Origin: Nitrospirales bacterium
Lineage (GTDB): Bacteria > Nitrospirota > Nitrospiria > Nitrospirales > UBA8639
Assembly (NCBI GenBank): GCA_013817135.1
Contig: JACDDF010000001.1
Span: 1 to 22,423, forward strand
Direction: 5' to 3'
DNA length: 22,423 nucleotides
Under the pieces are notes generated by a model, which searched no databases, had not been told where the DNA came from, and saw only the letters and a list, made by a program, of their open reading frames with translations. The position numbers and the translations under genes were made by a program. Below are positions 901 to 10,697 of the stretch, one piece after another. The first letter of the stretch is position 1. Each line of letters opens with the position of its first letter.

Positions 901-1224
901 CTAGGCCTTAGAAGACGCAGGAACCTGTTCCTGGGGAGCGGGCTGGACTGCTTCCGTTTGCATTGGGGTAACCGGTTCTGTCGGGACGGTCTGCATAGGC
1001 TGGGAAATTTGTGGTTGAGCATTGCCATGATTGGCCGACGCCGTATTTTCCGCCTGGGCCTGGGGGTCCAGGTCATACGCCTCTGCCTCATGGACAGATT
1101 TCTTGAACCCTTTAATCGCTTTTCCAACCCCTTCGCCCAATTGCGGCAATTTCCCCGCCCCAAAAATGATCAGCACAATCATGAGGATGAGAATTAATTC
1201 TGTAAATCCTAAGCTTCCAAACAT
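901..1224 (-). CDS. tatA: Sec-independent (Tat) translocase subunit TatA/TatE
   Basis: Pore-forming subunit of the twin-arginine pathway, which exports folded, cofactor-containing proteins. It has 107 residues. The N-terminal membrane helix (about residues 5-21) is followed by the FG hinge at 21-22 and the amphipathic helix [19 protein letters not shown], the typical TatA layout. The tail from about residue 50 is long, low in complexity and rich in Q, P and T, as is common in TatA. A good Shine-Dalgarno (AGGAGAGG) stands just before the ATG. It follows the TPR gene by 22 bp, so co-transcription is likely. No tatC or separate tatB is in the window. TatB cannot be excluded from sequence class alone, but the short helix and the [17 protein letters not shown] pattern favour TatA. 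Confidence 0.93.
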
Positions 1225-1246: not shown

Positions 1247-2062
1247 TCACTTTTTTACCATTTCTCTCGAACGCTTGCTAAACCGATCTTTGAGACGATT
1301 TCTGGCCTCTTCCGCTTGTTCAAACATCTTACACTTTTCATAGGTGTTAATCAGATTATAATAGGCCAATGGTTCATCAGGATTATTTTCAACGGCATCT
1401 TCCATTATTTTAACCGCCAGATCAGATTTCTTGAGATTTAAGGCAATTTCCATGAGCTTAAAACTCGACTCCAAATTACTTGGATCAAATTGTAGTACTT
1501 TCATATAAGCCTGCATTGCCATGTCTAACGTATTAAAGTCGGAGATATTGGGGTCATCCAATTTTTCATAGACTCCAGCCAAATTATACCAAGCAATGGG
1601 ATCTTCAGGTGAAATTTCGATCAGACGTTCGAAATACTCCTTGGCCTCTAAAAATGCATTTTTATCATTATAGAGTCGGCCGACATTAAAGAGAGCAAGC
1701 ACATCATAGGGGTTTAATTCCAATGCTCGTTTAAATTGACCCGTGGCCTCATCCAGCATCCCTTTTGTTCCATAGATCGTTCCAAGATTCGAATAGTACA
1801 TGGCCAGAGACCGATCCATTTCTACCCGAATACCTTCTGCCATCTCAATTGATTTCTTTACTTCCGCCAAGGCCTCATCCATACGGCCTTTATTGAAATA
1901 GAGCTCACCCAATCGACACCGTGCTTGAAAGTCGTCCGGCTCCTCGCTCAACAACTTTTCAATCTCAGCAATTTCCTCATCAACCGTTAATGGGCGTTCA
2001 TCTGTGGTCGTCTCGCCAGACTGCAGCTCCATCGTTTGGCTTCCAGCACTTTGTTCTTCCAT
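1247..2062 (-). CDS. TPR-repeat scaffold protein
   Basis: A 271-residue protein built almost entirely of tetratricopeptide repeats, which usually mediate protein-protein contacts. Repeats can be placed at roughly residues 44-77, 87-120, 121-154, 155-194, 195-229 and 231-264, with the usual W/Y-N-LG...Y and A-Y-P positions (for example [24 protein letters not shown]). The fourth repeat carries an extra loop ([12 protein letters not shown]). The first 40 residues are acidic and look disordered. There is no signal peptide or membrane segment, so a cytoplasmic location is likely. The start is supported by an AGGA about 8 nt upstream. It begins 14 bp after the membrane-protein gene stops and ends 22 bp before tatA, so the three look like one transcript. 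The partner is unknown. Confidence 0.88.
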
Positions 2063-2076
2063 TGCGTGTGTCCTAA

Positions 2077-3189
2077 CTACTGTGTTTGCCCGTAAATGGG
2101 ACGATTTGGTTGATAGACTAACCCTTCTTGAGCTTTCTTACGAAGCTTTCCCAAAGTTCCTCTTTTATCAATATTTAGCAACATTAACCCAAGCACTACC
2201 ATCAAGGTCAAATGGGATAATTGGAGCGCATAGCCTGCCATAAACATGAGACCCAGCCCATATCCTGCCAACCGACCGATCAACACCAACTTAATTACGG
2301 TATACGCCCAACAGGTAAAACCCAACACATAAAATGCAAAGGGGAGATAAAAGGTATAGCCCATTCCCATTTGAAAAATCCAGCCTATCCCCTCGCCAGC
2401 CTTTCTGACTTCTTTCGCCACTTCAGGATTCCAGAGAGAAAGAAAAAAATCCAGGAAAAGTAGGGCTAGAAAAGCACTGCCACCGCTAATAAGCAAAGTT
2501 AATCCCCACCGGCGTTGTTGCTTGTTTTTGGTGATAATTGACGTAGTCCCATAGGCCCAAAACACTAGGATGCTTGAAAGCACCATTAATGCCTCACCAA
2601 GCCTATTACCTTCATGCACCAGGGGTGGGGCATCAAAAATATTGAGCCATCCATAAGTCGTTGACATCGTCTGATAATACAACCATCCGCTAATCCCAAG
2701 GAAAAAAGTCCCCACCATGAGCCGTTGGCTAAACACCCGGTGAGTAGCCCAGTATTCCAAAACAAGAAAAACGAGCAACCCAAACGCCAAAACATTATAG
2801 ACAATCGTTCCGACCATAACCGGAGGAAAGAGTAAATAGCCCACCGTACAAGCTACCAATAAGGCCGCCAATGGAATAACAAACTTATCCCATTCTCCCA
2901 CCCATAGCTTTGTTCGTATTTTTTGAACCAGCAAAATCCCTAAAATCAGAAAAACCAGAATCGCAGTCATATTCAATAGTACAAACCCTAAGGAGGAGAG
3001 CGTGCGAAATCCTATTCTGACCGCTTCATATTTTTCGGCTAACTTGCCAAGGTGCATACCCAACCGTGAAACCAGCCGATACAGCACCAATTCAAAAAAG
3101 GCTGCAAACAACAAACTCTTGAGCCCCCATTCAAAAAGAAGCCCTGGGCCGTCTATTCTTTCTTGATGTTTTTCAGTAGTGGAAATCAT
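2077..3189 (-). CDS. Polytopic inner-membrane protein of unknown family
   Basis: I do not recognise this 370-residue protein. It has about nine or ten hydrophobic segments, near residues 22-40, 66-88, 104-121, 125-146, 157-173, 198-218, 229-251, 275-300 and 310-338, joined by short polar loops, with a basic C-terminal tail (about 340-370) that is probably cytoplasmic. Histidines near membrane segments occur at 46, 150, 192 and 326, but I see no heme or cofactor motif that would settle a function. No clear Shine-Dalgarno precedes the ATG at 3189, so the start is less certain than that of its neighbours. It lies 72 bp after the radical SAM gene and 14 bp before the TPR gene, which suggests that all act together at the membrane. 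A transporter, a cytochrome-like protein or an assembly factor are all possible. Confidence 0.8.
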   Translation of the reverse strand: MISTTEKHQERIDGPGLLFEWGLKSLLFAAFFELVLYRLVSRLGMHLGKLAEKYEAVRIGFRTLSSLGFVLLNMTAILVFLILGILLVQKIRTKLWVGEWDKFVIPLAALLVACTVGYLLFPPVMVGTIVYNVLAFGLLVFLVLEYWATHRVFSQRLMVGTFFLGISGWLYYQTMSTTYGWLNIFDAPPLVHEGNRLGEALMVLSSILVFWAYGTTSIITKNKQQRRWGLTLLISGGSAFLALLFLDFFLSLWNPEVAKEVRKAGEGIGWIFQMGMGYTFYLPFAFYVLGFTCWAYTVIKLVLIGRLAGYGLGLMFMAGYALQLSHLTLMVVLGLMLLNIDKRGTLGKLRKKAQEGLVYQPNRPIYGQTQ

Positions 3190-3261: not shown

Positions 3262-5034
3262 CTAAATCCTAGAGGGTTCCACTTCAAACTGTTTGTTATG
3301 ACGGGTGATATATAACAACCCATCCGCCATGGAGTAATTAAATGGTAATTCACACACAACTTCGCTGATCTTTTCATACACATACTGGTACACTTTTTCA
3401 GCCTGCTCCGGAGTCATGCCTGTTTTCACTTCATAAAAGAACCCTAAGCTCAAATCTTCCGAAGCTGGCCGCATAATTCGTTGAATCCCATACCCCCCTG
3501 GATCACTCATAATGGGGGCTTCCTTTTCTAGATCAAACAAACATGGTTGACAGGAAAATCCATAGGAAGAATTCAGCTTCGTATTATTGACAATAAAATT
3601 CAATGTTTCCAAGGACTCTTCTTCCGTTTCAGTCGGAAATCCCACGATCACGTAGCAATGCACCGCAATTCCAAGATCAACACAATCAGAACAGATTCGA
3701 TCAACATTTCCCTGGGTAATCCCCTTCACCATAAAATCCATCAGCCGGGCATTATAGGTTTCCAACCCAAAAACAATTTTTTGACATCCTGCCTCCCGCA
3801 TGGAGGTTAGTAACTCACGAGATAAATTCTTCTCAAATCGCAACTCGGCCGTCCACTGTAAATCCAACCCTCGATGAATTAGTTCCTTACACAGTCGTTT
3901 AGTTGGGGAAAGTGCCAGGCACTCATCCGTAAAGAAAAAATACCGTGTTTCATATTTATTGGACAACGCTTCCAATTCATCAACAACTTTCATTGGATCT
4001 TTTTGACGAAAATTCTGATGATCCAAAGTCAATGCACAAAAAGCACAATCCTTATAATAGCACCCTCTAGAAAATTGCACTGGCAACACCGTATGGGGCG
4101 CTAAATATTCACCCAAAGGAAACCCATCATAATTCGGGGCTGGATGCTCCGCGAGGTTTTCCGAGTAAAATGGCTGATTCACAATTATTTTTCCATCTTG
4201 CCGCCAGATGAGATTTGGCACTTTACTGAAATCTCTTTTTCCGTCTAACTGATTTATCAGTTCCAAAAGGGCCGTTTCACCTTCAAAAACAATGAAATCA
4301 TCAGTCAATTGAAATAGCCGATCACATCGCCTGAGATTATCCACCAGCCTCGTAAAAATACTTCCTCCGACGGTTACATGAACCTCAGGATGAATTTCCT
4401 TAATTAACTTACAAAGGGTTAAACCAGGGATGATCTGTGATGTAGCAGTTATGGAAACCCCAACAAAGTCTGGAATATCCTGACCAAAACCGGGAAAGAA
4501 GAATTTCCGGTAAAGATCCAGATAGGGGTTTTGGCTTTCATCGTGTATAGCTTGAAGAATTTCGCGTGAAGAATAAATAGAATACGCAAATTGGTTGTCA
4601 ACTACCGTCATCCTGGTCGGGAAATATAGGGAAGAGACAACCTCCAACCACCGATCGATCAAAAAGAGGCATTCTCGGTATCGATCAAGATGATAAAATT
4701 CTTCACCACGCAGGGAGGCTTTAACGGGCTCGATTTCATCTATCAAATAAGGAAATCGGTCAAGTGATTCCACAACACGAGCGTAATGTTCCTTACTCCC
4801 ATAGCCGGTTTCTCCAGAAACCGAATCTTCCAGCTTTTTCACCAAATCAACTAACCGGGGATGAATATCTAACCCAAAATCTTTAGTTAAGACCCTATCA
4901 AGTAACTCAATATTTAAATCACGTTGCTGATGGACAGGAACACCGGATTTTTCAAGAAAGGCTGAAAGACAGGGCACACTCAAATAGGGCTGAGAGGGAT
5001 GCCAACTCGGAGGGAATAAAAGTGAAATTTTCAC
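3262..5034 (-). CDS. B12-binding-type radical SAM protein
   Basis: A 590-residue protein with the layout of cobalamin-dependent radical SAM enzymes. The N-terminal part begins MKISLLFPPSWHPSQPYLSVP and contains a Rossmann-like VGVSITATSQ and VTVGGS (about 190-225), as in B12-binding domains. No DxHxxG motif is seen, so base-off cobalamin binding by a histidine is not indicated. The radical SAM core starts with FSRGCYYKDCAFCAL: cysteines 325, 330 and 333 form CX4CX2C for the 4Fe-4S cluster, one residue longer than the classical CX3CX2C. Later core motifs are FFFTDECLALS (about 366-376), KIVFGLETYN and YVIVGFPTETEEE. The start codon is GTG, chosen because GGGAG lies 7 nt upstream. Members of this class do methylations or other radical chemistry on varied substrates; the substrate here is unknown. 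It is the first gene after the terminator at 5187-5236. Confidence 0.88.
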   Translation of the reverse strand: MKISLLFPPSWHPSQPYLSVPCLSAFLEKSGVPVHQQRDLNIELLDRVLTKDFGLDIHPRLVDLVKKLEDSVSGETGYGSKEHYARVVESLDRFPYLIDEIEPVKASLRGEEFYHLDRYRECLFLIDRWLEVVSSLYFPTRMTVVDNQFAYSIYSSREILQAIHDESQNPYLDLYRKFFFPGFGQDIPDFVGVSITATSQIIPGLTLCKLIKEIHPEVHVTVGGSIFTRLVDNLRRCDRLFQLTDDFIVFEGETALLELINQLDGKRDFSKVPNLIWRQDGKIIVNQPFYSENLAEHPAPNYDGFPLGEYLAPHTVLPVQFSRGCYYKDCAFCALTLDHQNFRQKDPMKVVDELEALSNKYETRYFFFTDECLALSPTKRLCKELIHRGLDLQWTAELRFEKNLSRELLTSMREAGCQKIVFGLETYNARLMDFMVKGITQGNVDRICSDCVDLGIAVHCYVIVGFPTETEEESLETLNFIVNNTKLNSSYGFSCQPCLFDLEKEAPIMSDPGGYGIQRIMRPASEDLSLGFFYEVKTGMTPEQAEKVYQYVYEKISEVVCELPFNYSMADGLLYITRHNKQFEVEPSRI

Positions 5035-5291: not shown

Positions 5292-6248
5292 TTAGTTTGG
5301 CATTTGAGCCGTAAACCAAGTCGAAATCCCTTTCATCCCGTTTCGTTCTACGTTGGAACCGTCCCAGACCGCAAAAGCTACCGGGAAGCTGGCCCCTGCC
5401 GCGAATTGAACATCATTGGGGTCTTGCGTTTTGAGACTCCGCTTCATAACCACCCGCCAGGTTGGACCGCTGCAGCAGCCACCCTTCAGTGATCCATACG
5501 GCTCCCATAATCCATTCCCCACAACGTCTTGTGACGCTTGGGTAGTCAACGTACTAAATCCATTAGCATTCAAATCTTCGACTGATCCCAACCGCATGTT
5601 AGGATCTGACATAATGTTGCCTGACCAAATACCTGGGTTAAATGGCCCTAAGCTCCGACCAATTCGGTCAGGATAGGTCACACCACCAGCTGGCTCTTCA
5701 TAGTAATAATCCCAGGCTATGGATGGATATTGATTGTCAACATCCCACATACCTGCTACGCCAGCTCCAAGATCTTTTTGCCATTCCGCATTCCATCGCC
5801 ATATGTTGACCGTCCCACCAGACTGTCCCATACATTGGAATGGAGGAGCCCCTGCAGATTGTACAGGGAATTGCACTGCCACTTGATCCCTGAAATCCTG
5901 CGGACCAATGGTAGTATTATTTAATGTTTGATCACCCCAGTTGGCCCAAACGCCGATTTCCTCGCCATTTGTTGCCATTTTGATCATCACAGTTTTCACT
6001 GAGATGTTCGGATGCATTGGGGTCGTTATCGTCTGCCCACTTAATGGGGCAACGATACCAGGCACGGATTCCCATACAGGATTTGCCGCATCCATAGGGA
6101 TTGGCCCAGTAATTTTGCCAACCGGAATTGTTACCGGTTGCGAGACGGCCAGCGGAATCTGTCCCATGGTCAAACCTACACAGACCACCAAGACAGACAG
6201 AAGAACGCCAAACACCAGTCGTTTGTTACGCGTCTGCACCAATCTCAT
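5292..6248 (-). CDS. NxrC-like heme-b gamma subunit, type II DMSO reductase family
   Basis: Periplasmic electron-transfer subunit resembling the gamma subunits of ethylbenzene dehydrogenase, dimethylsulfide dehydrogenase and the proposed NxrC of nitrite oxidoreductase. The 318-residue protein starts with a Sec-type signal peptide (basic RNKR, hydrophobic stretch 11-29, likely cleavage near AVS-Q at 36/37). Family landmarks are VWESVPG, the strand DQVAVQFP (121-128), NIWRWNAEWQKD (148-159), TWRVVMKRSL (263-272) and FAVWDGSNVERNGMKGISTW (292-311). In ethylbenzene dehydrogenase a Met and a Lys bind the heme; Met140 in FQCMGQ and Lys269 in VMKRSL are the matching candidates here, by inference. 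A strong AAAGGAGG lies 10 nt before the ATG. It follows the chaperone gene by 116 bp and is closed by the terminator at 5187-5236. The molybdenum subunit (alpha) and the iron-sulfur subunit (beta) are not in the window, so the partner enzyme could be Nxr or another family member. Confidence 0.85.
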   Translation of the reverse strand: MRLVQTRNKRLVFGVLLSVLVVCVGLTMGQIPLAVSQPVTIPVGKITGPIPMDAANPVWESVPGIVAPLSGQTITTPMHPNISVKTVMIKMATNGEEIGVWANWGDQTLNNTTIGPQDFRDQVAVQFPVQSAGAPPFQCMGQSGGTVNIWRWNAEWQKDLGAGVAGMWDVDNQYPSIAWDYYYEEPAGGVTYPDRIGRSLGPFNPGIWSGNIMSDPNMRLGSVEDLNANGFSTLTTQASQDVVGNGLWEPYGSLKGGCCSGPTWRVVMKRSLKTQDPNDVQFAAGASFPVAFAVWDGSNVERNGMKGISTWFTAQMPN

Positions 6249-6364: not shown

Positions 6365-7336
6365 CTAATCATTACCTGATTGCTCAGATACCCCACTTTC
6401 CTTATCTAAAAATGCATCCGCACCCACTTCACTCATAAGAAGACTCAGTTCGTTACCTTTATCCTGAGCTCCACATTCAAAGCTTTGACCTTCAGGGTTA
6501 TTGTATGTTGCAGGGCGATAATCAGTTTCTGAATAAGGCTGGGGAGTTACCCCTAAAAATGCAATATCGAAGGCCATCCAATTTGAGGTGAAATCGGCCA
6601 AAATTTTATAAAATCCGTAATCGGCTTTTCTAATTAACATTCCTGAAAACAAAGGAACCCATCGACCAATATGCTCTTTAACGAATTTCTTCTCCGCTTC
6701 AATGACTGTCTTAAGTTTTTCTGCTCCATCATGAAGAATGGCATATGATTCTTTATAGGCCAAATAATGCATAAATTCTAACTCTACACTCAAATGATCA
6801 AGGCGCTCATGAATATCAGGAGAAAGCTGAAGGCCAAAGGCACTATAAAAACCAGAAATATCACCCATGACGTATGACTGGCCAAACACATGATCATTTC
6901 CAAACAATGTTTCGTACGGCGGACAATCCAATGCAATGACATTACTAAACACTCTTCGATGCTCATCACGTAAATCTTGGAGACTCCAGTTTTCCCCTTC
7001 GGATGCTATCCAAGCTTCAATCGCATCAAAATTACCCACCAATGCAGCAAGACGCTCTTGCGTCTCTTCTCCGCCTATACTTTGTAGCTCTTTTTTCAAA
7101 CTTTCTAAGGCTAATTTTCCATCTTCAACAAATTCTCCACTTTGAAGATAATCCAAAAATTCCTCATCTTCAGGATACAGATACCCCCATGACACTAGCA
7201 GATAAAGCTTACTCCGACAAAGTGCCCGATCAACAGCTGGCGCATCTTTCGGGGATATCTTGACGGCCTTTTCATTTCCTGAAACTGTCATTCCGTTTTT
7301 TCCTACTTTTTTTCCCTCTTTAACGCCTGATGTCAT
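6365..7336 (-). CDS. TorD/DmsD/NarJ-family molybdoenzyme assembly chaperone
   Basis: Cytoplasmic all-helical chaperone that holds the catalytic subunit of a molybdoenzyme until its cofactor is inserted and it can be exported by Tat. The 323-residue protein has the family signatures DEHRRVF (124-130), ALDCPPYETLFG (135-146), DISGFYSAFGL (159-169) and ERLDHLSVELEFMHYLAYKE (177-196). It is longer than the usual 200-240 residues because of a basic 30-residue N-terminal extension and an acidic C-terminal tail of about 50 residues containing one Cys (288). The start is supported by AGGTG about 5 nt upstream; a later ATG at residue 16 is possible. It is the first gene behind the promoter at 7431-7459 and precedes the NxrC-like gene, so the two very likely serve the same enzyme. 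Confidence 0.87.
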   Translation of the reverse strand: MTSGVKEGKKVGKNGMTVSGNEKAVKISPKDAPAVDRALCRSKLYLLVSWGYLYPEDEEFLDYLQSGEFVEDGKLALESLKKELQSIGGEETQERLAALVGNFDAIEAWIASEGENWSLQDLRDEHRRVFSNVIALDCPPYETLFGNDHVFGQSYVMGDISGFYSAFGLQLSPDIHERLDHLSVELEFMHYLAYKESYAILHDGAEKLKTVIEAEKKFVKEHIGRWVPLFSGMLIRKADYGFYKILADFTSNWMAFDIAFLGVTPQPYSETDYRPATYNNPEGQSFECGAQDKGNELSLLMSEVGADAFLDKESGVSEQSGND

Positions 7337-7669: not shown

Positions 7670-8281
7670 TTACCTGGGAACAATTCGAATAGCTGTACGG
7701 TCATTTACCGTTCCACAGATATATTGGCATATTCCACAACCCACGCATACCGAATCATCTACACGAATGTGATATGAGGCAAAATCCATCGAGAGAGCCT
7801 CCGTAGGACATTTAGAAACACACGCATTGCAGCCGGTTCCTGCCGTACACAGTTTTGCCCAAACTTTCGCCACTCCCATATTCACCTGAAAACGATCCGC
7901 AACAGGTAAAAGGGCCTCGGTAGTACACGCCCCAATACAAGGAAGATCATCACATAATTTGCATGGGGATTCTCCTGGGTAGATAACGGGAGTATCATTA
8001 CTCGATAACACTTGAATAGCGTCGTGAGGACAGACTTCGACGCAATCAGCGCATCCGGTACAGCGCTCCAAAAATAACTTCTCCTCCACTGCCCCTGGGG
8101 GACGAAGCCACCCCGTTTTCTCAGGAATAGGCTGCTCCTTTTTTATCGGGGAAGGAGCATCACGGTGTTTCACGAATTCATGAACAGTCGCGCCAATGGA
8201 AATTGCCGATTGTCGAAGAAACATTCTTCGACCTAATGTCGGATTAGATGAAGGGTGTTTTGACAGATCGGATTCCGACAT
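7670..8281 (-). CDS. Ferredoxin-type protein with four 4Fe-4S clusters (NapG/MauM-like)
   Basis: A 203-residue iron-sulfur protein with 16 cysteines in four groups: 74-77-80-84 (CTGCADCVEVCP), 107-110-115-119, 145-151-154-158 and 179-182-185-189 (CVGCGICQYICG). This fits four 4Fe-4S clusters, as in NapG/MauM-type electron-transfer proteins. The N-terminus has GRRMFLRQSAIS, close to the Tat consensus (RRxFLK), but the hydrophobic stretch after it is short and no clear A-x-A cleavage site follows; either it stays uncleaved and exported, or the RR is a relic as in NapF. Likely role: electron transfer, possibly with the heme subunit or its catalytic partner. It lies 68 bp after the HEXXH gene on the same strand. 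The Shine-Dalgarno is weak (GAAAG), but the start before the RR motif is the reasonable one. Confidence 0.86.
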   Translation of the reverse strand: MSESDLSKHPSSNPTLGRRMFLRQSAISIGATVHEFVKHRDAPSPIKKEQPIPEKTGWLRPPGAVEEKLFLERCTGCADCVEVCPHDAIQVLSSNDTPVIYPGESPCKLCDDLPCIGACTTEALLPVADRFQVNMGVAKVWAKLCTAGTGCNACVSKCPTEALSMDFASYHIRVDDSVCVGCGICQYICGTVNDRTAIRIVPR

Positions 8282-8349: not shown

Positions 8350-9348
8350 TTATACCACCCCAGAGGCCCGCAGCTTATACACCTCTACGCATCTGTCACA
8401 GGACCCATATTCCACATCCCATCCTGGATGGTTTTCGCGAATATAATCTAAGACAAAGCCTTCTAGGGTCTCATCCATGTTTTCTACCCAGGTATAGGTT
8501 GGGAATCGACAAAGGGGACAAGGAAACCCTGGGAGAAGCATGGGCTTGGTTGGCACATCAGGAACTTCACTGTCCTCAACCTCAATGGCTCTCTCGATAA
8601 CTCGTATCGTATCCGAAGCCATTTCTACTAATTCAGCATGCGTGAGATAATCCGCCTGCCAGATCCCTTCAAACACGGATTCCACCTGACCGGGAAGAAT
8701 CTTTCGATACCAGGAACGGAACTCCCGGAACCGATATTCCTTCGAAAACATCGGCTCTTTTCCTGTTCGGGCAATCCGGCTATCGACATGGAGGTTCCAC
8801 AGCACACGGTAACGATTTAAAATCAAATGTTCTTCCCCGGGGTTCAACCCCACTTTTGTGTCAGGATCGTAACCAAAGGCCTCATCTAACATGTCAGAAA
8901 TATGCGTTAACTCATGTCGTAGGTAACGGGTAATGGCTGGATCATAAAATCGCCGGGGGATCAATTTAATTCCTACCCCTTTTTTCCCGGCCTCCTCAAA
9001 TTGGCGGGATAGTTTTTCTTCGACCACCCCCCATTTCCGAAGAACATCAACCCCTTCCTGATCTTCTTTCAATACCCCTCGCACCAACACAATCCCAGTT
9101 TTATCTCGCAAAACCGGGAAGTCATCAAAAGCATCCCGGAGAATTTCAGCAAACCCCCATTTAGCAAATAAATGTTGATAGAGCCGCTTGAACTCTGGAT
9201 CCCGGTCATCAAGAGAAAACTTCTCGTAAATGGGGTCCGCAAACTCATGAAACTCATTAAAATAAGTCGGATCGCCTTCACGCTCAGTCTTTTCAGCAAA
9301 CGAGTCAATCACCTCCTGAAGGAGGGCGGGTTGAAAACGAATTTCCAT
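8350..9348 (-). CDS. Uncharacterised protein with HEXXH motif and two CXXC pairs
   Basis: I do not recognise the family. Residue numbers use the ATG at 9348, chosen because GGAGG stands 8 nt before it; a TTG two codons upstream is less likely. The 332-residue soluble protein has HELTH at 145-149 followed by ISDMLDEAFGYD, a zincin-type zinc motif, so a metallopeptidase-like fold is possible. No certain third zinc ligand is visible; E172, E173 or H174 (PGEEH) and H187 are candidates. The C-terminal part has CPLC (277-280) and CDRC (317-320), two CXXC pairs 37 residues apart that probably form a zinc-ribbon or rubredoxin-like knuckle. There is no signal peptide. It is the first gene of the minus-strand group leading to the ferredoxin and NxrC-like genes, which suggests a maturation or proteolytic role there, but this is inference. 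Confidence 0.8.
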   Translation of the reverse strand: MEIRFQPALLQEVIDSFAEKTEREGDPTYFNEFHEFADPIYEKFSLDDRDPEFKRLYQHLFAKWGFAEILRDAFDDFPVLRDKTGIVLVRGVLKEDQEGVDVLRKWGVVEEKLSRQFEEAGKKGVGIKLIPRRFYDPAITRYLRHELTHISDMLDEAFGYDPDTKVGLNPGEEHLILNRYRVLWNLHVDSRIARTGKEPMFSKEYRFREFRSWYRKILPGQVESVFEGIWQADYLTHAELVEMASDTIRVIERAIEVEDSEVPDVPTKPMLLPGFPCPLCRFPTYTWVENMDETLEGFVLDYIRENHPGWDVEYGSCDRCVEVYKLRASGVV

Positions 9349-9602
9349 GAGCAAAACCTCCGTTTACCGCAAGATCACCACAAGACGAGTTTCGTTTCTC
9401 GAAAGATGATCACCGTAATTTTAAATTCGCATTGATTTGGGAGGTAGCTATCTTGACTCCCCCGAAAAGCGACGTTTAGTATCATAACTAGTTGAATTAT
9501 AGGAATGAGTTTTCCCTTTTGGCAAGAGAGTTCCCTTGATCCATTCCCCAAGCCGTATAACCGCCCATTTATTGTCAATCTGTTTCCGAAGCGAGGAATT
9601 TC
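9349..9602. other. Divergent intergenic region
   Basis: A 254-bp region between two divergent genes. On the plus strand it holds a promoter candidate (9453-9482). For the minus-strand gene I see only the Shine-Dalgarno and no convincing promoter boxes. The sequence GGTGATC occurs twice on the minus strand near 9373 and 9410. No RNA gene is apparent. Confidence 0.5.
9453..9482 (+). promoter_or_regulatory. Possible sigma-70 promoter of the WD40 gene
   Basis: TTGACT (9453-9458) and TAGTAT (9477-9482) with an 18-nt spacer. The -35 box is good and the -10 box moderate. The predicted leader is about 110 nt. Confidence 0.4.
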
Positions 9603-10697
9603 ATGACCCAGCCGACAAGTTCTGACACACTGAGCTCCAATCACGGGTTCATCCATAATCCTGATTCCCAACCCTCACTTCTCATTGATTCACTAGCCTA
9701 TTGGAAAGGCGGTGCTAGGGAACTGAAGTCATTCCGTGGTCACACACAAGAAATATGGGCTGTCTCCTTTTCCCCTGATGGCCTGACACTAGCAAGCGGA
9801 GGGAATGATCGTTTTATCCGGATTTGGGATATTGAAACCGGCCGCCTTCTCCGATCTCTACGAGGCCACACCCTTACCGTTCGAGAAGTCAAGCATAGCC
9901 CTGATGGCCAAATGATCGCTTCAGCAAGTGAAGACCGGACCATTCGGCTTTGGAATCCTCAAACGGGGGAATCCCTTCGATTACTCTTTACTCGTTATGA
10001 CCATGGCGTAACCAGTATTTCATTTTCCCCAGATGGCCTCATGCTCGCTAGGGCTGGCCAAAATAAAGACATTAAAATCTGGGAAGTAACCACAGGCACC
10101 GAACTCATGACGCTCCTTGGGAAGGACCAATACGACCATAATTGGAGCGTCTGCACAGCATTTTCTCCGGACGGAATTCACCTAGTGGCTGGCACCGATG
10201 TCGGGAAAATCAAGCTTTATGAAGTTTTGCCAAGCGGGGAAGAAAAAATTGTTCACAACGGCCATTGGAGAGATGATGCCGACGACGAATCGACCGAAAA
10301 TCGTGGGTTTTACGTAGACGACCAAGGCGGATTTCAAAAGCCCATGGAATATTGGATTGGGGCACTAACCTTCACTCCTGATGGGGGCACCATGATTTCC
10401 GGAAGTCGCGACTGTACGATTAAATTCTGGGACATGCCGACGATGGAAGAACGCCGCACACTGAAAGGCCACTCGGCATGGGTTAGAAATCTTATTGTGA
10501 CCCAGGATGGACAGGTGCTTATCAGCGCCAGTGATGATGGGACCGTCAAAATGTGGGAAATTCAAACTGGACGTCAATTCAGGACGATTCGGTCACACAA
10601 AGGACCGGTCAGGGGGATTACCCTTTCATCTGATGGGAAATACCTCGCCACGGCTGGAAACGACCGCATCATCACCCTCTGGGATGGTGGGGCATAA
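9603..10697 (+). CDS. WD40-repeat seven-bladed beta-propeller protein
   Basis: A 364-residue protein with seven WD40 units at about residues 45-76, 88-118, 133-161, 179-207, 249-277, 289-319 and 331-361. Typical blade text is VSFSPDGLTLASGGNDRFIR followed by IWD, and LW, IW, LY, FW, MW and LW close the other blades. Seven units predict a complete closed propeller, usually a protein-interaction platform. Between blades 4 and 5 lies an insertion of about 38 residues (210-248) rich in Asp and Glu (HWRDDADDESTENRG), which would be an exposed acidic loop. No signal peptide, membrane segment or attached enzymatic domain is present. GAGG stands 6 nt before the ATG. It is the only plus-strand gene in the window and converges on the response regulator gene, so it forms its own transcription unit. 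Confidence 0.9.
   Translation: MTQPTSSDTLSSNHGFIHNPDSQPSLLIDSLAYWKGGARELKSFRGHTQEIWAVSFSPDGLTLASGGNDRFIRIWDIETGRLLRSLRGHTLTVREVKHSPDGQMIASASEDRTIRLWNPQTGESLRLLFTRYDHGVTSISFSPDGLMLARAGQNKDIKIWEVTTGTELMTLLGKDQYDHNWSVCTAFSPDGIHLVAGTDVGKIKLYEVLPSGEEKIVHNGHWRDDADDESTENRGFYVDDQGGFQKPMEYWIGALTFTPDGGTMISGSRDCTIKFWDMPTMEERRTLKGHSAWVRNLIVTQDGQVLISASDDGTVKMWEIQTGRQFRTIRSHKGPVRGITLSSDGKYLATAGNDRIITLWDGGA

Follow-up and report, generated by a model that had tools for sequence, protein, structure and literature searches.

The stretch of DNA analysed here (hereafter the window; 22,423 nt, positions 1 to 22,423 of contig JACDDF010000001.1, assembly GCA_013817135.1, from a Nitrospirales bacterium) raises the question of what is done by a protein, here termed X, whose gene lies on the minus strand at 8350..9348, upstream of genes for a ferredoxin, a TorD-like chaperone and an NxrC-like subunit. 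X accompanies the genes of nitrite oxidoreductase (NXR), the enzyme through which Nitrospira and Nitrospina form nitrate and a key catalyst of the global nitrogen cycle, in at least two phyla. The assembly of NXR, and the difficulty of making it in other hosts, are to our knowledge poorly understood. Starting from four computed results, namely the X family, its conserved motif, its zincin-like predicted fold and its genetic link to NXR, we propose with a rough probability of 0.55 that X serves specifically the biogenesis of NXR, from within the cytoplasm, as a metal-binding zincin joined to a zinc ribbon that would act with TorD on NxrA and/or NxrB.

The genetic link was surveyed in 395 Nitrospirota genomes, 143 of which belong to the order of the window. 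X is present in 138 of the 395, comprising 137 genomes of the order and one (G034) of another family. The model TIGR03479 proved useless as a marker of NXR, matching 388 of the 395 genomes, and because of this lack of selectivity the NxrA of Nitrospira was used as the query instead. At E ≤ 1e-100 it was detected in 135 genomes (119 inside the order and 16 outside it), and X occurs in 116 of the 119, in G108 and G214 as fragments only. In two of the exceptions, G266 and G364, the contig stops just upstream of TorD; the third, G181, yielded no TorD either. Outside the order, X was found in none of the 16 NxrA-bearing Nitrospirota genomes (0/16), also when a profile was applied at E ≤ 1, and loci from eight of the 16 carry genes for A, B, C and TorD without X (A and B being split in L160). 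The presence of X with every enzyme of the type II dimethyl sulfoxide (DMSO) reductase family is ruled out by these eight loci and by two X-less loci of the Nitrospinota.

Twenty-one X-bearing genomes of the order yielded no NxrA at E ≤ 1e-100. They include the window's own metagenome-assembled genome (MAG; G000, 84.6% complete), in which X is present and neither NxrA nor NxrB was found; NxrA is present in four genomes of the same genus, and its absence here, like that of NxrB, is probably an assembly gap. A passage of PMC12342949 describes NxrA as a poor presence marker in MAGs owing to assembly gaps at multi-copy genes, and adjacency is for that reason the stronger evidence for a link between X and NXR. 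Such adjacency was surveyed in 72 Nitrospirales loci, some sharing a genome. A script placed the ferredoxin after X in 71 of them, and a separate reading of the locus did so for the 72nd (L128); TorD is present in 68 (three loci run off the contig) and NxrC in 57 (14 run off the contig), while a WD40 gene precedes X in 71, the contig of L031 starting at X itself. The exception to this order is L038, where X and the ferredoxin are followed by unrelated-looking DNA, without TorD or NxrC.

Three genomes of the order, grouped here as family f4, have no intact X and no NxrA match. By our own inference f4 is probably UBA2166, which a passage of PMC12342949 gives as the only clade of the Nitrospirales devoid of NXR. 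A profile search for X in 26 chosen genomes recovered a relic in one only, an f4 member (L164 in G310) whose remnant (E 1.1e-8) comprises 47 decayed residues from the zinc-ribbon part at the C-terminus of X and includes an in-frame stop. The persistence of a relic in a family without NXR hints at loss, not at primitive absence. X is likewise in pieces in three Nitrospirales genomes (G108, contig C20; G214, contig C29; G382, contig C76), and in G108 the HEXXH part is gone between two pieces 95 bp apart, through either real decay or an assembly error.

In the Nitrospinota, X was found in 51 of 77 genomes, some copies being cut by contig ends. Wherever the next same-strand gene could be read (36 of 36 cases, by matches to the query set), it is TorD (18), NxrA (14) or NxrB (4), at most 219 bp away, and in the remaining 15 cases no more than 275 bp separate X from the contig end. 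One contig (L101) shows the order X-NxrA-NxrB-TorD-NxrC. At E ≤ 1e-40, NxrA was detected in 32 of the 77 genomes, 28 of which have X, and seven of the 23 genomes with X and no NxrA at this threshold show the start of NxrA after X at a contig end. X is missing from G399 and G400, whose NxrA-like genes show 42% identity to Nitrospira NxrA and, in G400, accompany an NxrB without the insertions of the NXR type; it is also missing from G431 and G432, whose NxrA shares 95-97% identity with one from Nitrospina. A typical Nitrospirales locus, with an X of 84% identity, occurs in a MAG that bears the title Nitrospinota (B18T1B5; G397, locus L043); the label of this MAG is perhaps wrong or its bin mixed.

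G034, a 77% complete genome from a distant Nitrospirota family, offers contig ends with the orders NxrB-TorD-NxrC-X and X-ferredoxin-membrane protein, together with a weak 28-bit piece as its only NxrA match. Its NxrB is 65.5% identical to the NxrB of Nitrospira and Nitrospina, against 44.2-51.5% to X-less ones (shared columns), and carries the 8- and 17-residue NXR-type insertions. Insertions of 8 and 17/18 residues are common to the NxrB of X-bearing lineages (L062, L089, L101 and L065) and absent from eight X-less NxrB-like proteins. Judged by the identity and the insertions of the G034 NxrB, X goes together with NxrB of the NXR type. X co-occurs with nxr or torD genes, and adjoins them, in unrelated lineages, the exceptions being G431 and G432. 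In the Nitrospirales and in some Nitrospinota (for instance G413, L092 and L148), X lies beside TorD while nxrAB lie elsewhere, a disposition to be expected of an accessory protein sooner than of a subunit.

The gene itself and the residues on which the proposal turns are the following, numbered from the ATG at 9348 unless otherwise stated.

8350..9348, minus strand: protein X, 332 residues; open reading frame with a zincin-like domain bearing HEXXH and then a C-terminal double-CXXC, zinc-ribbon-like part, as predicted by models
9357..9361, minus strand: GGAGG, a site resembling a ribosome-binding site, preceding the ATG at 9348 as read in the sequence
8902..8916, minus strand: conserved HELTH motif, residues 145-149 (147-151 in the 334-residue numbering), on model helix 141-156 (334-residue numbering)
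8893..8895, minus strand: Asp152 of HExxHxxD, candidate metal-site residue, invariant in 116 of 116 sequences
8782..8784, minus strand: Asp189, candidate third metal ligand, in the helix after HEXXH (172-196, 334-residue numbering); D in 115 and E in 1 of 116
8509..8520, minus strand: first CXXC, residues 277-280, within the C-terminal motif CPLCRFPT; 116 of 116
8389..8400, minus strand: second CXXC, residues 317-320; 116 of 116

Plus-strand frame 1 of 8350-9348 contains several stops, and the open reading frame is that of the minus strand. The searches used a 334-residue version starting at a TTG two codons upstream of the ATG, so that subtracting 2 yields the residue numbers of an earlier note on this DNA, made from its letters and translations. 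That note had described a soluble protein of no placeable family with HELTH and two CXXC pairs at these residues. The positions proved correct and the motifs conserved; no strongly hydrophobic segment exists in X (the highest 19-residue Kyte-Doolittle mean is 0.69), nor was any export signal or transmembrane segment seen.

At E ≤ 0.001, a protein search returned 188 relatives of X and profile searches 471 and 1316, 120 being listed from each search. Named organisms among the matches listed are Nitrospira and Nitrospiraceae, Nitrospinota (Nitrospinaceae, Nitrospinales and Candidatus Nitronauta), Dehalococcoidia and bacterium HR11; genomic neighbours were readable for the Nitrospirota and Nitrospinota relatives, and not for those of Dehalococcoidia, HR11 or unnamed organisms. 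The Nitrospinota members contain a long acidic insert. An alignment of 116 sequences was made from the X of the window and 115 listed relatives, picked for length and diversity and 34-98% identical to it. In the 334-residue numbering, E148, H151, D154, R181, W186, R193, C279, C282, C319 and C322 are invariant (116/116), and D191 (115, one E), H239 (115), H147 (114) and D157 (111) are nearly so. The first histidine of HEXXH, H147, is replaced by Y in P0123 and by D in P0144, and L041, which lies outside the alignment, has Q at this position; the motif as a whole survives in the majority of relatives, even at identities as low as about 35%. Conservation over 116 aligned sequences indicates that HEXXH and CXXC are not chance occurrences. 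The candidate third metal ligands suggested by the alignment, in the numbering from the ATG, are D152 (116), D189 (115), H237 (115) and D155 (111 of 116).

Two structure models of X (pLDDT 91.6 and 91.9) both place HEXXH on one helix packed behind a small beta sheet, in a zincin-like arrangement, and from the i/i+4 spacing on the modelled helix it follows that the two histidines would face one another. Judged by titles, zincins make up 27 and 44 of the best 50 rows in the structural comparisons of the two models; a family missing from these 50 rows is not thereby excluded. A reading of the motif as a ferritin-like EXXH was dropped, the model having zincin-like topology, and a viral structure library gave no clear match. 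The X of the window matches no family in Pfam or NCBIfam at E ≤ 1, nor any PDB sequence by phmmer at E ≤ 10; no family rose above its cut-off when a profile was compared with PDB, when 34 and 116 members were compared with Pfam, or when 34 were compared with NCBIfam.

Several families with a related motif or task were considered. The sole peptidase family among the weak Pfam matches is M76 (PF09768), matched at E ≤ 10 by four of the 116 members (best E 0.042); membership was rejected, the gathering score not being reached (12.1 versus 25.2 bits for P0143), and in terms of sequence these matches are a lead, not membership. The M76 motif pattern is one that we take to be similar to the HExxHxxD of X. 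Atp23, of M76, resembles X as an HEXXH peptidase that also aids the assembly of one respiratory complex, as a passage of PMC8877559 describes it; X differs in being bacterial, in its C-terminal double CXXC, in lying far under the Pfam cut-off and in having no known substrate. On sequence, a place among the SprT-like, Wss1 and SPRTN proteins was rejected as well, since neither SprT-like nor WLM is among the 22 Pfam families listed for the 116 members at E ≤ 10; unlike those proteins, X has no conserved third histidine in the 116-sequence alignment, and its genetic link is to NXR and not to DNA repair. Zincin hydrolases of the YbeY type have a three-histidine motif, which X lacks, carrying instead HEXXH and a zinc-ribbon-like tail. 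The chaperones TorD, DmsD and NarJ share with X adjoining genes and probably a pathway, but X carries a metal-site motif and matches neither PF02613 nor TIGR03482 (Pfam and NCBIfam, E ≤ 1), whereas its neighbour does have such matches.

Maturation proteases of NiFe-hydrogenases (HyaD/HybD type) share with X the idea of a protease dedicated to one metalloenzyme, and the earlier note had drawn this parallel. These proteases are not known to have HEXXH, and X shows no match to their family. Alignments of 10 NxrA (two from X-bearing genomes) and 12 NxrB (four from X-bearing genomes, one of them a fragment) reveal no C-terminal tail specific to X-bearing lineages; processing of the hydrogenase type was rejected on this basis, and the parallel is consequently weak. 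The two NxrB insertions are possible contact sites for X on a client. The broader suggestion of that note, according to which X is either a metallopeptidase with zinc or a maturation factor that binds metal, dedicated in each case to a periplasmic molybdoenzyme, is supported: both models put HEXXH on one zincin-like helix, the motif persists in most relatives to about 35% identity, and readable relatives are linked to molybdoenzyme genes (36 of 36 in the Nitrospinota; NxrB-TorD-NxrC-X in G034), so that none of the three contrary results that it named (histidines turned apart, loss of HEXXH in close homologues, homologues spread without any link to molybdoenzyme loci) occurred.

How X might work can be outlined as follows. 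The HEXXH helix of a divergent zincin domain would bind a metal, probably zinc, and the C-terminal four-cysteine part would form a zinc ribbon. As a metal-dependent factor, X would join the TorD-like chaperone in acting on NxrA, NxrB or both in the cytoplasm, before export by the twin-arginine (Tat) route, as suggested by the absence of an export signal from X, by the N-terminus of NxrA, which by eye is Tat-like, and by the catalytic glutamate kept in 116 of 116 sequences. Its most likely contribution would be a limited cut or a protease checkpoint in assembly, and it may also hold or assemble its client, in a way comparable to that of Atp23 with ATP synthase. Atp23 appears to be the best functional parallel, by analogy: a passage of PMC8877559 assigns its HEXXH to processing and another part to assembly, a proteolytically inactive form still assembling ATP synthase. 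More tentatively, and as a claim that we would rate somewhat short of an even bet, X may be the first zincin-type (HEXXH) maturation peptidase and assembly checkpoint for a molybdenum bis-MGD (bis-molybdopterin guanine dinucleotide) enzyme, processing or proofreading NxrA/NxrB in the cytoplasm with TorD and travelling between phyla with NxrB of the NXR type and its insertions.

In the main rival reading, X no longer cuts peptides and serves NXR as an assembly chaperone or as a factor handling metal or clusters, its HEXXH and ribbon being structural or metal-delivering; cysteine-rich accessory proteins do deliver metal for other molybdoenzymes. It would leave the gene linkage just as described, and it draws further support from the four cysteines, which equal E146, H149 and D152 in conservation, from the lack of a visible processing site on NxrA or NxrB and from the fact that the first histidine of HEXXH can be lost. 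Pseudo-peptidases, however, usually lose the catalytic glutamate, and its retention in all 116 sequences leads us to regard this explanation as unlikely, if well worth keeping in view.

The presence of NXR without X in G431 and G432 speaks against X being strictly necessary, unless these MAGs are incomplete. The same two genomes favour the idea of X as a general protease or regulator, co-inherited with the NXR locus and without a direct role in NXR biogenesis, as does the conservation by descent of the whole block in the Nitrospirales, which makes many genomes count for little more than one observation. Yet X lies by TorD or Nxr genes in the differing gene orders of Nitrospinota, G034 and Nitrospirales, and genomes whose NxrA-like enzymes are all of other types yielded no X, so that co-inheritance alone seems improbable. 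Highly improbable is an Fe(II)/alpha-ketoglutarate HEXXH oxygenase of zincin fold that would modify an NXR subunit beside the B12-binding radical S-adenosylmethionine (SAM) enzyme of the cluster: a ChlB row does appear in one model comparison, but it ties with many peptidases and is not in the best 50 rows of the other, and the 34 members scanned have no such NCBIfam match. A cytoplasmic biogenesis factor dedicated to NXR is the reading that we prefer.

The remaining genes of the locus are listed below.

9603..10697, plus strand: WD40 repeat protein, divergent neighbour of X (PF00400)
7670..8281, minus strand: NapG/MauM-like polyferredoxin with, by eye, a twin-arginine-type N-terminus; next gene after X, Fer4 models over cut-off
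6365..7336, minus strand: TorD-like chaperone (TorD/NarJ type) of type II DMSO-reductase-family enzymes (PF02613, 2.1e-19, over cut-off)
5292..6248, minus strand: NxrC-like heme-b gamma subunit (PF09459, 2e-26, over cut-off)
3262..5034, minus strand: B12-binding radical SAM protein (PF04055 over cut-off, PF02310 just below), cluster order conserved
2077..3189, minus strand: unclassified membrane protein, 370 residues, no Pfam or NCBIfam family over cut-off
1247..2062, minus strand: TPR protein by Pfam scan, same cluster, order conserved
901..1224, minus strand: TatA-like protein by eye; open reading frame, order conserved

The ferredoxin, TorD-type chaperone and NxrC-like subunit that had been read from the letters on the same strand as X are borne out by these matches; their best NCBIfam matches, each below its own cut-off, are NapG (3.7e-25), TIGR03482 (4.7e-21) and TIGR03477 (5.1e-39), respectively. 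Several Nitrospinota loci (L092, L094 and others) encode a relative of the radical SAM protein (about 312-330 bits) at a distance of 5-7 kb on the upstream side of X, and the radical SAM protein could modify an NXR subunit. Conservation of the 370-residue membrane protein extends across the Nitrospirales, and in G034 (L064) a relative of it is encoded downstream of X.

Parts of this locus have been named before. A passage of PMC12342949 reports that the cluster NITMOv2_3614-3631 of nitrite-oxidiser genes includes several proteins of unknown function; within it, NxrC is NITMOv2_3624 and TorD 3625 according to a passage of PMC6606698, and NITMOv2_3626 is called a periplasmic nitrate reductase in one of PMC6131200. 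By gene order, and by our own inference, X should be NITMOv2_3627. A passage of PMC3578206 mentions a conserved putative zinc finger protein that the NXR clusters of Nitrospira and Nitrospina share with that of Kuenenia, and this protein may be X; the anammox bacteria, Kuenenia among them, are the third lineage to have this NXR. A literature search, which left supplementary tables outside its scope, found no paper describing X by name, motif or HEXXH site.

The distribution of X in the Nitrospirota (116 of 119 NxrA-bearing genomes in the order versus 0 of 16 outside it) suggests that it may serve as a metagenome marker separating NXR from nitrate-reductase-like enzymes. If X is indeed an HEXXH maturation peptidase, NXR may not be makeable without it. 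X combines wide conservation with a metal site like that of a protease, and as a dedicated accessory protein it would be a concrete missing ingredient for the assembly of NXR.
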